Source: a virus. Taken from it: DNA of 28,015 nt. This document shows positions 16,084 through 27,969 of the stretch, in pieces. Numbering within the stretch: the stretch's first letter is position 1; every line of letters starts with the position of its first letter. The stretch lies in the IMG/VR virus record IMGVR_UViG_3300024346_000394, positions 1-28,015 of that record. One strand, 5' to 3'. The notes beneath the pieces are model-generated. The model made no database searches and was not told where the DNA came from. It was given only the letters and a program-made list of their open reading frames with translations. The position numbers and the translations under genes are program-made.

Positions 16084-16360
16084 AGAACTCTTCTCCCTGT
16101 TCTTTGTTTAGTAACTCATCAGGAATACTTGGAACCTCGCGTGAGTCCAAGGAACTCACGTTTAGGATCTTAGCAACCTCTTCAACGACCTGTTGCTTTT
16201 TCAAAGGATCGAGGATCTTTGTAAAAGCAACAGTTTTCGTATGCCTGTAGTGAATGACTCCCACAACCTCTTGGTCGCAGACGACCAGATATCTGTGGCA
16301 GTCTTGTTCACGCCCAGTGGCAAGGTTCTTGCCGCTTAAATTTTTAAGTTGAATTTCCAC
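16040..16360 (-). CDS. Hypothetical protein between tail tube and chaperone
   Basis: This 106-residue protein starts at a GTG (16360) with a strong GGGAGAAAG site seven bases upstream. The N-terminal half forms a strand-rich fold (HRYLVVCDQEVVGVIHYRHTKTVAFTKILDP). A helix QQVVEEVAKIL follows, then a very acidic tail ending EEFYEFDEEETAGEGSD, which overlaps the chaperone start. No known motif is present. Its place suggests a tail-assembly accessory, but function is unknown. Confidence 0.7.
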   Translation of the reverse strand: MEIQLKNLSGKNLATGREQDCHRYLVVCDQEVVGVIHYRHTKTVAFTKILDPLKKQQVVEEVAKILNVSSLDSREVPSIPDELLNKEQGEEFYEFDEEETAGEGSD

Positions 16361-23958: not shown

Positions 23959-24427
23959 CGCGTTTCATTGCCTCGACAATCGATGCCAATGACTCTGCTT
24001 GTTTCTTTTTGTCATCACCGTCAGGCAAGGAAAGTTTACCCCGACTAGCGGGGGTTAACCCAAGCTCGGTGACAAGCTTAATGTGCTCAGACGCAAGACG
24101 ACCCATTGCAGTTGATGCTGGAGTAATCCGACTGCCTGACTCATGAATGTGACCTTCTTGCTGAACAATCTCATACAACTTGAGGTACTCTGCGTAGGTG
24201 ATTGAGTAGTGTTCAAGCAAGTGGGTGTCGGTTTTTGAGAGCATCCCCATTTCTCTGAGAATGTCACATGTCTGCTTCCAAACCTTCTTTGCTGTCTTGC
24301 AAAGGTGGCGAGGCATGGTTGGTTCTGATTTACTGGAAGATGGTTCGCGATGGTTCTTCCTCTGCGGATCTTTCTTGTAAGAACCGTTCTCTTCTTTGAC
24401 TTTTGTTGCTAATCGTCTTGCTGGCAT
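23948..24427 (-). CDS. terS: Terminase small subunit, P27 family
   Basis: This 159-residue protein begins at ATG 24427 (MPARRLATKVKEENGSYKKD), with AAGGA just before it; an in-frame TTG at 24484 is not favoured. The P27 pattern is seen: basic N-terminus with SYKKDPQRKNHREP (cf. G..G....R), then PRHLCKTAKKVWKQTCDILREMGMLSKTDTHLLEHYSITYAEY, followed by GSRITPASTAMGRLASEHIKLVTELGLTPASRGKL. It is the first gene of the late operon and should bind the packaging site, perhaps nearby. Cited motifs are partial segments. Confidence 0.9.
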   Translation of the reverse strand: MPARRLATKVKEENGSYKKDPQRKNHREPSSSKSEPTMPRHLCKTAKKVWKQTCDILREMGMLSKTDTHLLEHYSITYAEYLKLYEIVQQEGHIHESGSRITPASTAMGRLASEHIKLVTELGLTPASRGKLSLPDGDDKKKQAESLASIVEAMKRDDS

Positions 24428-24456
24428 TTCCTTACCCCGTTTGAGATTTAGCCTGC

Positions 24457-24484
24457 ATTCTATCAAATTTGCAGGTTTCGCCAA
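24457..24484 (-). promoter_or_regulatory. Candidate late promoter for structural operon
   Basis: Upstream of TerS the minus strand reads TTGGCG (24484-24479), a 16-nt spacer, then TAGAAT (24462-24457), about 30 bases before the ATG. Four of six and five of six bases match the sigma-70 boxes. It is the only gap above 50 bases upstream of the structural genes in that direction, so a promoter here is expected. Host promoter rules in planctomycetes are poorly known. Confidence 0.4.
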
Positions 24485-24494
24485 AAAGTACGGG

Positions 24495-24522
24495 TTGACT
24501 GGCAGTATCTGGCAGGTATACG
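24495..24522 (+). promoter_or_regulatory. Candidate promoter and operator for PrimPol gene
   Basis: On the plus strand TTGACT (24495-24500), a 16-nt spacer, and TATACG (24517-24522) precede the PrimPol start. Two tandem TGGCAG copies lie in the spacer at a 10-bp period (24500 and 24510). An inverted pair GTTGAC/GTCAAC (24494-24499 and 24533-24538) brackets the region. Together these look like a regulated divergent promoter zone shared with the late operon. Confidence 0.4.
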
Positions 24523-24554
24523 GTCTTGTTTTGTCAACAACTATGGAGAGAAGA

Positions 24555-26522
24555 ATGATACCTAAGTTTTACAAAGAGATTGGTGCTCGGCTTGTTTGCA
24601 TCAAGAAAGGAACCAAGTCACCGGGGGTTCCTGCTTGGACAAAGATCGAGGATCGATACGACCAAGCGTCAAAGAAGTTTGACCCGAGTGTCCACAACAA
24701 GGTCGGCTGGATTCTCGACGATACGCATTTGGTCATTGACATTGATACTCATGATCCAAGCAAAGACGGGTACGCTGCGTTGCAGAGACTATCGGACGAT
24801 CTTGGAGTGGATCTTTACGAGAGAGCAACCGTTGTCGTCAAAAGTCCATCTGGTGGTGCTCACTTGTATTTCTGGAAAGATCCAGAGATCAAGCTTCCGA
24901 AGTCATCGAAAGAGTATGCAGGACTCGATTTCCTAAGTGCCGGATCTCAGGTCATCATTGCTGGGAGTTCGCACGATGCTCATGCAGGTAGCTACGTCTT
25001 TGAACGCGAGTCAGAGTTCATTGCTCCGGTCATGACAGCGGCCTTGCATGAATCCTTGTCGGACAGGTCGCAAGACACTGACACTTCAAGGGCAGTAATC
25101 GAGCCATCTGAAGATAGACCTGGCGACGAGTTCAATAAGAGCGACAGAGCACTTGAGCATGTCAAGAGCCACATGTCTCAGGAAGGTTATTCGTTTAAAC
25201 ACAAAGTCGATCACTACGAGTTCACCCGACCAGGTAAGACCGACACTTCGTTTGCAATCTCTGGAACACTTGGACGCAAGAGTAAGCAGGGCAACTACAT
25301 CCTTCGCAACTTCTCTACCAGTGACCCAGTCTTTCCCAGCGATGCGTCGATAACCATCTTTGAAGCATTCAGGCTGATTAACCACTGGGACAGAGATCAG
25401 GTCACATTGCATGCGTCTGACCTTGGGTTTGGTACGCAGATCGATACAAGTGAAATCGAGGAAAGCGTTGACGACTGGCTTGCCAAGGTTCCTGAAACTA
25501 AAAACAGAGTTGACCAGCTTCCAAGCTACGAGATTGCAAAACGTGTTCTTTGCAGAACATTCGATGAACTGCCCGACATCAGTTCTGGACTGCGTAGACC
25601 TTACGTCATCGAAGGGCTGATCAGGACCGGAGAAGTGATGAACGTCATTGCTGCACCGAAAGTTGGTAAATCTTGGTTGGTGTACAACCTTGCCGTGAGC
25701 ACCGCATGCGGAAGGGAGTTCCTTGGATACAGAGCAAGCAAGAACCTCAAGGTGCTCCTGATCGACAACGAGTTGCACTGGGAAGAACTTGCTTGGAGAG
25801 TTCAGCAGGTTGCAGGCAACATGGCCGCCAACCCTCACGATGCCCTGACAGTCTCATGTGTGCGTGGGATGGACATTAGCCTTGCTGGGATAGAGAAGTT
25901 GCTCGACGAGATCGGTGGGGAACAGTTCGACCTTATCATCATTGATGCCCTTTACCGAGTTCTTCCCAAAGGTGCATCAGAGAACGACAACGCCCAGATG
26001 ACTCAGTTGTACAACCGGATCGACCAGATTGCAGGGAAGAACAACACAGCGGTCATCTGCATCCACCACACAAGCAAAGGTGCTCAAGGAGGCAAAGATG
26101 TTACCGATGTCGGCGCGGGAGCCGGTGCAATCAATCGTGCCGCTGATACGATCCTGACGATTCGCCCGCACAGAGATGACCCATACTTCGTCATCAACGC
26201 GCTGACTCGGTCTGGGCAGAGTCCTGAGCCAATCGTGGCTGAGTTTGATTGGCCGATCTGGATGGTTGCACCCGATGTGACCCCAGAGTTGCAAGATGAC
26301 TCACCACCAAAGAAACAGTCCGCCAAAGAGGTCAACACTGCCCTGTGCCTCGATATAGTCCGCAGGGACTCTGAAACTAGCCTCAAAGCCATTGCTGACG
26401 AGACAGGACTCTCTGAGGGTTCTATTCGCTCTTACTGCAAGCAGATGCAAGACGATGGACTAATCGAGATCGAGAAACGCCCCTACAAGCCTAGCATCAT
26501 TCGGGACGCTTCGGAATTCTAG
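24555..26522 (+). CDS. PrimPol-like primase fused to RecA-fold ATPase and HTH (replication protein)
   Basis: From ATG 24555, five bases after GGAGAG, this is a 655-residue protein. Residues 1-150 form a bifunctional primase/polymerase (archaeo-eukaryotic type) domain: DID (62-64) metal motif, SPSGGAHLYF with His103, and GLDF...GSQVIIAGSSH (123-140). Residues 350-540 form an AAA_25/RepA-like ATPase: Walker A APKVGKSW (367-374), Walker B LIIIDA (460-465), then ICIHHTSKG (His504/505) and the GAGAGAINRAADTIL region. A C-terminal winged-helix-like LKAIADETGLSEGSIRSYCKQMQDDGLIE (610-638) ends it. It should prime and unwind at the phage origin. It stands apart from the other replication genes under its own promoter. 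Confidence 0.92.
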   Translation: MIPKFYKEIGARLVCIKKGTKSPGVPAWTKIEDRYDQASKKFDPSVHNKVGWILDDTHLVIDIDTHDPSKDGYAALQRLSDDLGVDLYERATVVVKSPSGGAHLYFWKDPEIKLPKSSKEYAGLDFLSAGSQVIIAGSSHDAHAGSYVFERESEFIAPVMTAALHESLSDRSQDTDTSRAVIEPSEDRPGDEFNKSDRALEHVKSHMSQEGYSFKHKVDHYEFTRPGKTDTSFAISGTLGRKSKQGNYILRNFSTSDPVFPSDASITIFEAFRLINHWDRDQVTLHASDLGFGTQIDTSEIEESVDDWLAKVPETKNRVDQLPSYEIAKRVLCRTFDELPDISSGLRRPYVIEGLIRTGEVMNVIAAPKVGKSWLVYNLAVSTACGREFLGYRASKNLKVLLIDNELHWEELAWRVQQVAGNMAANPHDALTVSCVRGMDISLAGIEKLLDEIGGEQFDLIIIDALYRVLPKGASENDNAQMTQLYNRIDQIAGKNNTAVICIHHTSKGAQGGKDVTDVGAGAGAINRAADTILTIRPHRDDPYFVINALTRSGQSPEPIVAEFDWPIWMVAPDVTPELQDDSPPKKQSAKEVNTALCLDIVRRDSETSLKAIADETGLSEGSIRSYCKQMQDDGLIEIEKRPYKPSIIRDASEF

Positions 26523-26564
26523 TGGCAGTTTTAATTCCCGACCGTTACCCCACTGCATCCCAGT

Positions 26565-26684
26565 AAAACGGTTATCGTCTTGCGTAGCATGACGCCTTCG
26601 TGCTGCGTTGCTTTTGCTGATCGCAAACGTAAACGGCGAAGCATTCGCACGGCAACGAAGCGTCACCGCGACGATAACCGTTTT
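26565..26684 (+). ncRNA. 120-nt highly structured hairpin (ncRNA, palindromic repeat or terminator)
   Basis: AAAACGGTTATCGTC (26565-26579) and GACGATAACCGTTTT (26670-26684) form a perfect 15-bp outer stem, followed by two more Ts. Inside, TGACGC (26590-26595) pairs with GCGTCA (26660-26665), then TTCGT with ACGAA, or alternatively CGTTGC (26606-26611) with GCAACG (26652-26657). The apex has two small hairpins: TTTGC(TGATC)GCAAA (26613-26627) and GCGAA(GCA)TTCGC (26636-26648). The inner part is richer in CG than its surroundings. It lies 42 bases after the PrimPol stop and holds no convincing ORF. It could terminate that transcript, encode an RNA, or be an acquired palindromic element. Confidence 0.65.
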
Positions 26685-26719
26685 TTGGGGAAATGCAAGT
26701 GGTAACAGAAATTTGGTTG

Positions 26720-26746
26720 TAAGTCGTTTGTGTGTAAGGACTTAGG
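26720..26746 (+). repeat. Dyad motif copy A: TAAGTCGTT-N10-GACTTAGG
   Basis: TAAGTCGTT (26720-26728), ten bases, then GACTTAGG (26739-26746), an inverted half-site pair (TAAGTC/GACTTA). The same two blocks with the same 10-base gap recur at 27943-27969. Repetition of both blocks and the gap argues for a protein-binding or origin site rather than chance. Confidence 0.6.
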
Positions 26747-26751
26747 ACAAA

Positions 26752-26790
26752 AGTTTTTGACCAAAACTGCGTGACAGTCACAGGTGTCAC
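26752..26790 (+). promoter_or_regulatory. Two adjacent dyads upstream of the early promoter
   Basis: AGTTTT-TGACC-AAAACT (26752-26768) is followed two bases later by GTGACA-N8-TGTCAC (26771-26790). Both are short perfect inverted repeats of operator size. They lie between dyad copy A and the TTGACA promoter, consistent with a control region for the rightward early genes. Confidence 0.45.
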
Positions 26791-26815
26791 AAGATTTTCC
26801 AGCGAGATTTTGCTG

Positions 26816-26845
26816 TTGACATGGACTATCGATGCCGAAGATACT
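26816..26845 (+). promoter_or_regulatory. Early rightward promoter (TTGACA-N18-GATACT)
   Basis: A perfect -35 TTGACA (26816-26821) is followed after 18 bases by GATACT (26840-26845). Initiation near 26852 would leave an approximately 85-nt leader to the first supported gene at 26937. This and the three dyads explain most of the 414-nt gene-free stretch 26523-26936. The stretch also contains the 120-nt hairpin. Confidence 0.5.
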
Positions 26846-27926: not shown

Positions 27927-27942
27927 AACTGAAAAATCGTCG

Positions 27943-27969
27943 TAAGTCGTTGGCATCAAACGACTTAGG
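27943..27969 (+). repeat. Dyad motif copy B: TAAGTCGTT-N10-GACTTAGG
   Basis: The second copy of the motif at 26720-26746, with the same blocks and the same 10-base gap. Here the dyad is longer: TAAGTCGTT pairs with AACGACTTA (27959-27967) over nine bases. It lies past the last small gene; the two copies thus bracket the rightward early cluster. Confidence 0.6.

Follow-up and report, generated by a model that had tools for sequence, protein, structure and literature searches.

A long stem-loop just past the replicase gene of a tailed phage as a probable replication-initiation site

For most environmental phages the origin of replication is unknown, and searches based on skew or repeats often miss it. 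The window analyzed here, a 28-kb IMG/VR virus record of a tailed phage (IMGVR_UViG_3300024346_000394, positions 1 to 28,015), contains a long, ordered hairpin in the gap behind its replicase gene. An earlier note, made from the sequence alone, had offered four guesses about it: a small RNA, a recombination substrate, a replication-initiation structure or a host-type palindrome that had moved into the phage. What does this hairpin do, and does its place behind the replicase gene matter? The evidence favors the third of those guesses.

The replicase gene and the hairpin behind it

The terminase, portal, capsid and tape-measure genes of the window lie on the - strand. Other products include an SSB-like protein, a Sak4-like annealing protein, an SF2-type helicase, a methyltransferase and a phosphoesterase; no DNA polymerase was recognized among the proteins searched. 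The replicase has three domains, all above the family cut-offs: an N-terminal Prim-Pol domain (PF09250), an AAA_25 domain (PF13481) and a winged helix-turn-helix (PF13412). The nearest solved chain by sequence is RSF1010 RepA, a weak match (E 0.009). An AlphaFold2 model (mean pLDDT 76) was used for a structure search that covered mainly the helicase domain; the top match was again RSF1010 RepA (Z 21.4 over 213 residues, 2.6 A), with DnaB tied within about 1 Z. The C-terminus is confidently predicted to have a winged-helix-like pattern, helix-helix-helix-strand-strand. The GC-skew minimum falls at 24179, 2.4 kb from the hairpin and at the flip of gene direction, and because skew follows gene direction here it is uninformative on the origin. 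The features discussed below are as follows, L041 and L042 being relatives described in the next section.

24396-26522, + strand: replicase gene, 708 aa, with Prim-Pol at about 24570-25013, AAA_25/RepA-type helicase at about 25593-26084 and winged HTH at about 26349-26468
26544-26706, no strand: whole stem-loop, proposed replication-initiation site, defined by the inverted repeat, the fold z-score and homologues in L041 and L042
26544-26563: left half of the outer, imperfect extension, GTTACCCCACTGCATCCCAG, where L041 has a single compensated pair (C-G to T-A)
26550-26553, - strand: CCAC (GTGG on the - strand), mirroring the site at 26699; not kept in L042
26565-26579: left arm of the perfect 15-bp outer stem, AAAACGGTTATCGTC, with three compensated pairs in L042
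26580-26669: asymmetric inner stem and apex; its 3' half, TTCGCACGGCRACGAAGCGTCNCCGCGACGATAA, continuing into the right arm, is nearly invariant in three lineages
26670-26684: right arm of the perfect 15-bp outer stem, GACGATAACCGTTTT, exact reverse complement of the left arm
26691-26702, + strand: 3' block AAATGCAAGTGG, invariant in three lineages, with a candidate primer start, GTGG, at 26699-26702
26816-26845, + strand: past the hairpin, a promoter-like site for the following block of genes, a TTGACA-18-GATACT consensus match conserved in L041

The element begins about 21-22 nt past the replicase stop codon. The hairpin that the earlier note had placed at 26565-26684 is real, with the perfect 15-bp outer stem ascribed to it (the arms are exact reverse complements, spaced 90 nt apart), but those limits are too narrow: beyond the arms the inverted repeat goes on, with short breaks, as far as GTTACC (26544-26549) on the left and GGTAAC (26701-26706) on the right, a total of 163 nt. 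The 120-nt segment folds at -55.7 kcal/mol on the + strand (z -5.6) and -54.2 kcal/mol on the - strand (z -5.4), and none of 200 dinucleotide shuffles did as well on either strand, so the fold passes the comparison with shuffled sequence that had been proposed as a check. The longer segment 26542-26706 reaches -75.4 kcal/mol (z -7.1) as RNA, and z -7.6 and -7.7 on the two strands with DNA parameters. In sliding 170-nt windows the 26544-26706 element is the most stable structure of the 28 kb, in which it is single-copy.

The folds also bear out the asymmetric inner stem, with unpaired bases mainly on one side. The two apical hairpins described at the outset depend on the model: DNA parameters (+ strand) give two small ones, and RNA parameters give one irregular stem. 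The inner CG richness is present but modest, with 57% G+C in the inner 90 nt versus 47% in the window and 43% just downstream.

Other inverted sequences occur in the window. The palindromic GTGACAGTCACAGGTGTCAC adjoins the TTGACA-18-GATACT site (26770-26845) and is strongly conserved in L041. The motif TAAGTCGTT...AACGACTTA is present in two copies in inverted relation about 1.2 kb apart (26720-26748 and 27939-27967), the second of which is itself a 9-bp hairpin; it is possibly a repressor or recombinase site. In the structural-gene region, 16190-16233 holds a terminator-like 17-nt near-perfect inverted repeat (CTGTTGCTTTTTCAAAG / CTTTGTAAAAGCAACAG) with a 10-nt loop.

Hairpins after related replicase genes

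A search with the flank pattern returned 30 loci, among which the only real ones were L002-L005; L006 and L047 also proved to be chance matches. L003 and L004 are contigs of essentially the same phage and carry an identical hairpin. L002 is about 89% identical over the replicase region, and its element is 96% identical; L005 and L041 are one contig. In this 89%-identical relative the 5' flank is unrelated, and homology begins sharply at the left end of the repeat. Extra DNA with an opposing ORF stands between the primase gene and the hairpin (L005:486-885), and the break in homology falls at the hairpin's left edge.

A third lineage, L042, has a replicase 63% identical to the window's and a homologous element, AACAGATTATCGTC ... 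GACGATAATCTGTT, where the window has AACGGTTATCGTC ... GACGATAACCGTT. When the three lineages are aligned, 92% of cells are paired, versus 33-47% with the structure slid along the alignment. Seven stem pairs, five of them in the outer stem, are altered on both sides with pairing intact, a result reached by none of 500 shuffles. These figures come from three sequences and from a model-fitted alignment, which leans toward the model structure; the outer-stem compensatory changes are also plain in an unfitted alignment. (A MAFFT alignment begun at 26558, in which the L042 stem is shifted, was left out.) Homologues with compensatory changes, which the earlier note had wanted to see, therefore exist in both L042 and L041. 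Apart from R and N, neither the inner block TTCGCACGGCRACGAAGCGTCNCCGCGACGATAA nor the 3' block AAATGCAAGTGG varies; the latter is retained even though L042 preserves only part of its pairing partner and not all of the outermost helix. Both strands of the window and of L041 carry GTGG 3' of the stem, and in L042 only the + strand does; as evidence a 4-mer counts for little.

With the replicase, profile searches extended to relatives at 40-46% identity and to more distant ones. Nearly all of the 40-46% relatives with sequence past the stop codon have a strong downstream hairpin, unrelated in sequence to the window's:

L064, L070, L072 and kin: hairpin TAAGCTATCA/TGATAGCTTA, with covarying variants TAGACTATCA/TGATAGTCTA and TAAACTATCAC/GTGATAGTTTA
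L065: hairpin GGTTAAACTCT/AGAGTTTAACC
L068: hairpin TGTATTAGACT/AGTCTAATACA
L099: 145-nt rod
L100: 144-nt rod

The first of these belongs to a second homologous family (L064, L069-L072, L074) with compensatory changes of its own. Strong hairpins likewise occupy the gaps after the primase/helicase genes of the annotated phages EFC-1 and FP_Lugh, and repeats that are likewise able to pair fill a 401-bp gap in Javan535. L067 and L076 have strong hairpins without perfect 10-bp arms; no long repeat was found after the replicase in relatives L079, L104 and L106.

We scored a gene end as positive when perfect arms of 10 bp or longer, 20-140 nt apart, lay no more than 250 nt from the stop codon. Of 28 replicase loci 15 qualified, and of 11 near relatives 8 did, compared with 5 of the 87 other gene ends in these loci (Fisher 1.2e-7 for all loci, 1.2e-6 for the near relatives); these values ignore kinship, and the replicase loci, being related, are not independent trials. 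An earlier count in 200-nt windows gave 9/15 versus 0/54. At least five unrelated hairpin sequences are represented among the replicase loci. The median fold z-score was -4.7 after replicase genes and -0.95 in controls. Across the 28 loci, RNA folding was not consistently better on either strand (Wilcoxon p = 0.26), as expected of an element that acts at the DNA level. Recurrence of a hairpin behind this replicase family is thus observed directly.

Several of these loci have further features. In several relatives (L064:6140, L065:6222, L068:6382) the hairpin is followed by a small gene that has a conserved DPDGY motif. In Streptococcus phage Javan535, the DNA after the RepA-type helicase gene (L077:3803-4203) holds many AGGGACAAACCCGAG-like repeats and looks like iterons and hairpins combined. 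A virus contig (L105:4040-4180) has GTCCAACTTTT/AAAGTTGGAC repeats after its replicase gene; GTCCAACTTTT is also found in the origin stem of the Sulfolobus plasmid pRN1 (L119, 5084-5183), by chance or as a shared recognition motif.

Does the hairpin vary with any part of the replicase? Among eleven replicases, hairpin homology was recognizable only between those whose C-terminal domains share about 45% identity or more. This defines two groups, window/L041/L062 and L064/L069/L070/L071/L072, and the sole borderline case is a weak local resemblance between the hairpins of the window and L067 (z 5). L065 and L068 have cores that are 78% identical, C-termini that are 28% identical and unrelated hairpins; the next gene has also diverged. 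In these sequence comparisons hairpin homology follows the C-terminal domain, which does no more than suggest a coupling by recognition. The C-terminus and the hairpin are neighbors, so a single recombination event or one fast-evolving block could explain the coupling without recognition. We offer tentatively, and with less than even confidence, the broader proposal that C-terminal domain and hairpin are matched for recognition and can be exchanged as a pair, that Prim-Pol phages in general bear a structured origin past the replicase gene, and that a joint swap alters origin specificity but leaves the primase-helicase core in place. If the two are such a pair, phages with a shared core need not replicate each other's DNA.

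Terminator, RNA, packaging and mobile-element readings

The hairpin could instead end or stabilize the replicase transcript. It lies between the replicase stop codon and a promoter-like site, and a T-run (TTTTTT in the window) is kept at the 3' end of the stem in the window, L041 and L062, so that an RNA stem might halt polymerase there before the next promoter, or protect the mRNA 3' end. However, some of the Ts are within the stem, and between the arms lie 90 nt, not a short loop; at this locus and its relatives we did not find the GC-rich, short-loop stem followed by a conserved T-run that marks a Rho-independent terminator. Most of the same-place hairpins in relatives have no T-tract. Moreover, in L041 the DNA with the opposing ORF parts the hairpin from the replicase gene, yet the element is 96% conserved. 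The fold is as strong on the - strand as on the + strand, and a terminator should not need an invariant inner block. We consider this explanation, the main rival, unlikely, although the hairpin may have some part in termination in the window's own lineage. The initial impression of something "far beyond a simple terminator" has held up, given the T-tracts that most relatives lack and the intervening DNA of L041.

A structured phage RNA that acts after transcription, such as a small RNA, an RNase III site or a regulatory leader, would account for a strong RNA fold with compensatory changes and for the ordered, irregular interior. No Rfam family matched at gathering or permissive thresholds, so the covariance-model check suggested by the earlier note came back empty. 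The 28 loci show no preference for folding on the + strand, and between lineages the hairpin sequence is unrelated while its place after the replicase gene is kept. Such an RNA is distinctly improbable. Still less probable is some other phage DNA site, for packaging or recombination, that merely lies beside the replicase gene: the terminase genes are about 2 kb away, but the hairpin is associated with the replicase gene and the C-terminal domain of the replicase, and the pRN1-type relatives are plasmids without packaging.

The element was also sought in cellular genomes and other replicons. The arms pattern had four matches in GTDB species genomes, all unrelated. A covariance model of the hairpin found nothing in 398 Pseudomonadota genomes and the four arms-match genomes; these genomes need not include the host's phylum, so absence from host genomes is weakly tested by these searches. 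Searches of plasmid and annotated-phage DNA with the hairpin returned nothing relevant. The core sites of integron attC (RYYYAAC/GTTRRRY), for which a check had been recommended, are absent from both strands of 26521-26730. The weakest reading, a MITE-, REP- or attC-like palindrome of mobile or host origin inserted in the phage, would fit the abrupt start of homology on the hairpin's left side in L041 and an inner G+C somewhat higher than in the surroundings, but the element is single-copy with nothing related in the species-genome arms scan, the covariance model was negative in Pseudomonadota, an attC core is lacking, and the place after the replicase gene is kept to 63% identity in homologues and over deep divergence beyond them, which leaves that guess barely credible. 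A long near-perfect palindrome on a Hwanghaeella MAG contig (L036:3271-3450), whose 180 inspected bases fold along their whole length, is probably a fold-back assembly artifact.

A proposed origin and its known counterparts

We conclude that 26544-26706 is probably a cis-acting replication-initiation stem-loop, either an origin or a primase-assembly site, in a tailed phage whose adjacent gene encodes a replicase of the Prim-Pol/RepA-type-helicase/winged-helix kind. We infer this activity from the position, conservation and recurrence described above, from the parallel with the pRN1 stem-loop, from a hairpin scan that recovers the pRN1 element, and from the parallel with the hairpins recognized by the RSF1010 primase. 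In the mechanism we propose, the winged helix of newly made replicase would bind the element just past its own gene, and the helicase would oligomerize there and open the DNA. The exposed strand might then fold into the hairpin, or the duplex might extrude it. The Prim-Pol domain would begin a primer beside the hairpin, perhaps at the GTGG 3' of the stem (+ strand, 26699-26702) and its mirror (- strand, 26550-26553), and host or phage factors would extend it.

If this is correct, the origin of a phage with a Prim-Pol/RepA-helicase replicase could often be read from sequence, as a long inverted repeat just after the replicase gene. In the literature we found, the principle is already published, though thinly, for one plasmid family and one phage group, both with SF3 helicases. 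What is new here is a stem-loop that is conserved, evolves by compensatory change, lies behind a Prim-Pol replicase of the RepA type and recurs across phages, with hints of matched exchange with the C-terminal domain. The 2014 pRN1/BIP-1 proposal would thereby be widened from SF3 to RepA-type replicases and to several phage lineages, with the evidence of compensatory change added and a protein domain suggested that may recognize the structure.

Among known systems, the Prim-Pol of phage NrS-1 is also joined to a helicase domain and initiates at GTGG/GTGA or TTTGGTTA (PMC8718748); the comparison is by description, and we know of no hairpin described for it.

RSF1010 is closer in its parts. Its replication starts where an AEP primase recognizes a hairpin with GTG on the 3' side, at one site per strand (PMC4434180; PMC4234260), and its RepA is the top-ranked match to the phage helicase domain. 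In contrast to the phage, its oriV (ssiA/ssiB) is served by three separate proteins, the primase RepB', the helicase RepA and RepC, together with iterons, and the ssi hairpins, likened here by description, are of about 21 nt within 40-nt sites. A repeat search of the whole window found no iteron-like direct-repeat family near the hairpin, unlike the RepC-bound iterons beside the RSF1010 ssi sites.

The authors of the pRN1 study saw a similar stem-loop in phage BIP-1 (PMC4234260). The BIP-1/BPP-1 case differs from ours in its SF3 helicase and in a hairpin of unrelated sequence, and it was a single phage group in that paper. The likeness is that of a tailed phage with an AEP primase replicase and a hairpin, predicted in that work, directly 3' of the gene. 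BPP-1 and pRN1 served as positive controls for our hairpin scan: with a shorter allowed spacing the scan found a 70-nt hairpin after the BPP-1 primase, and unchanged it returned the exact 100-nt pRN1 element.

pRN1 provides the best-studied counterpart. Its 100-nt stem-loop, from 54 bp after orf904, is essential and restores replication when moved; it is conserved in shape but not in sequence, and the authors proposed it as the origin (PMC4234260). The stem-loop of the pRN1 family was reported independently (PMC3869888). pRN1 is a plasmid whose stem-loop has been tested for function, whereas the phage element is known from sequence. The pRN1 structure is a 21-bp stem with a 58-nt loop and the phage hairpin a bulged rod to its apex. 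The pRN1 helicase is SF3 while that of the phage replicase is RepA/DnaB-type, so the phage system is a variant rather than a strict member of the pRN1 type. What the two share is a replicase that combines Prim-Pol, helicase and winged helix, and, tens of bp past its stop codon, a stem-loop of about 100 nt that has GTG motifs and keeps its shape as its sequence changes between relatives.
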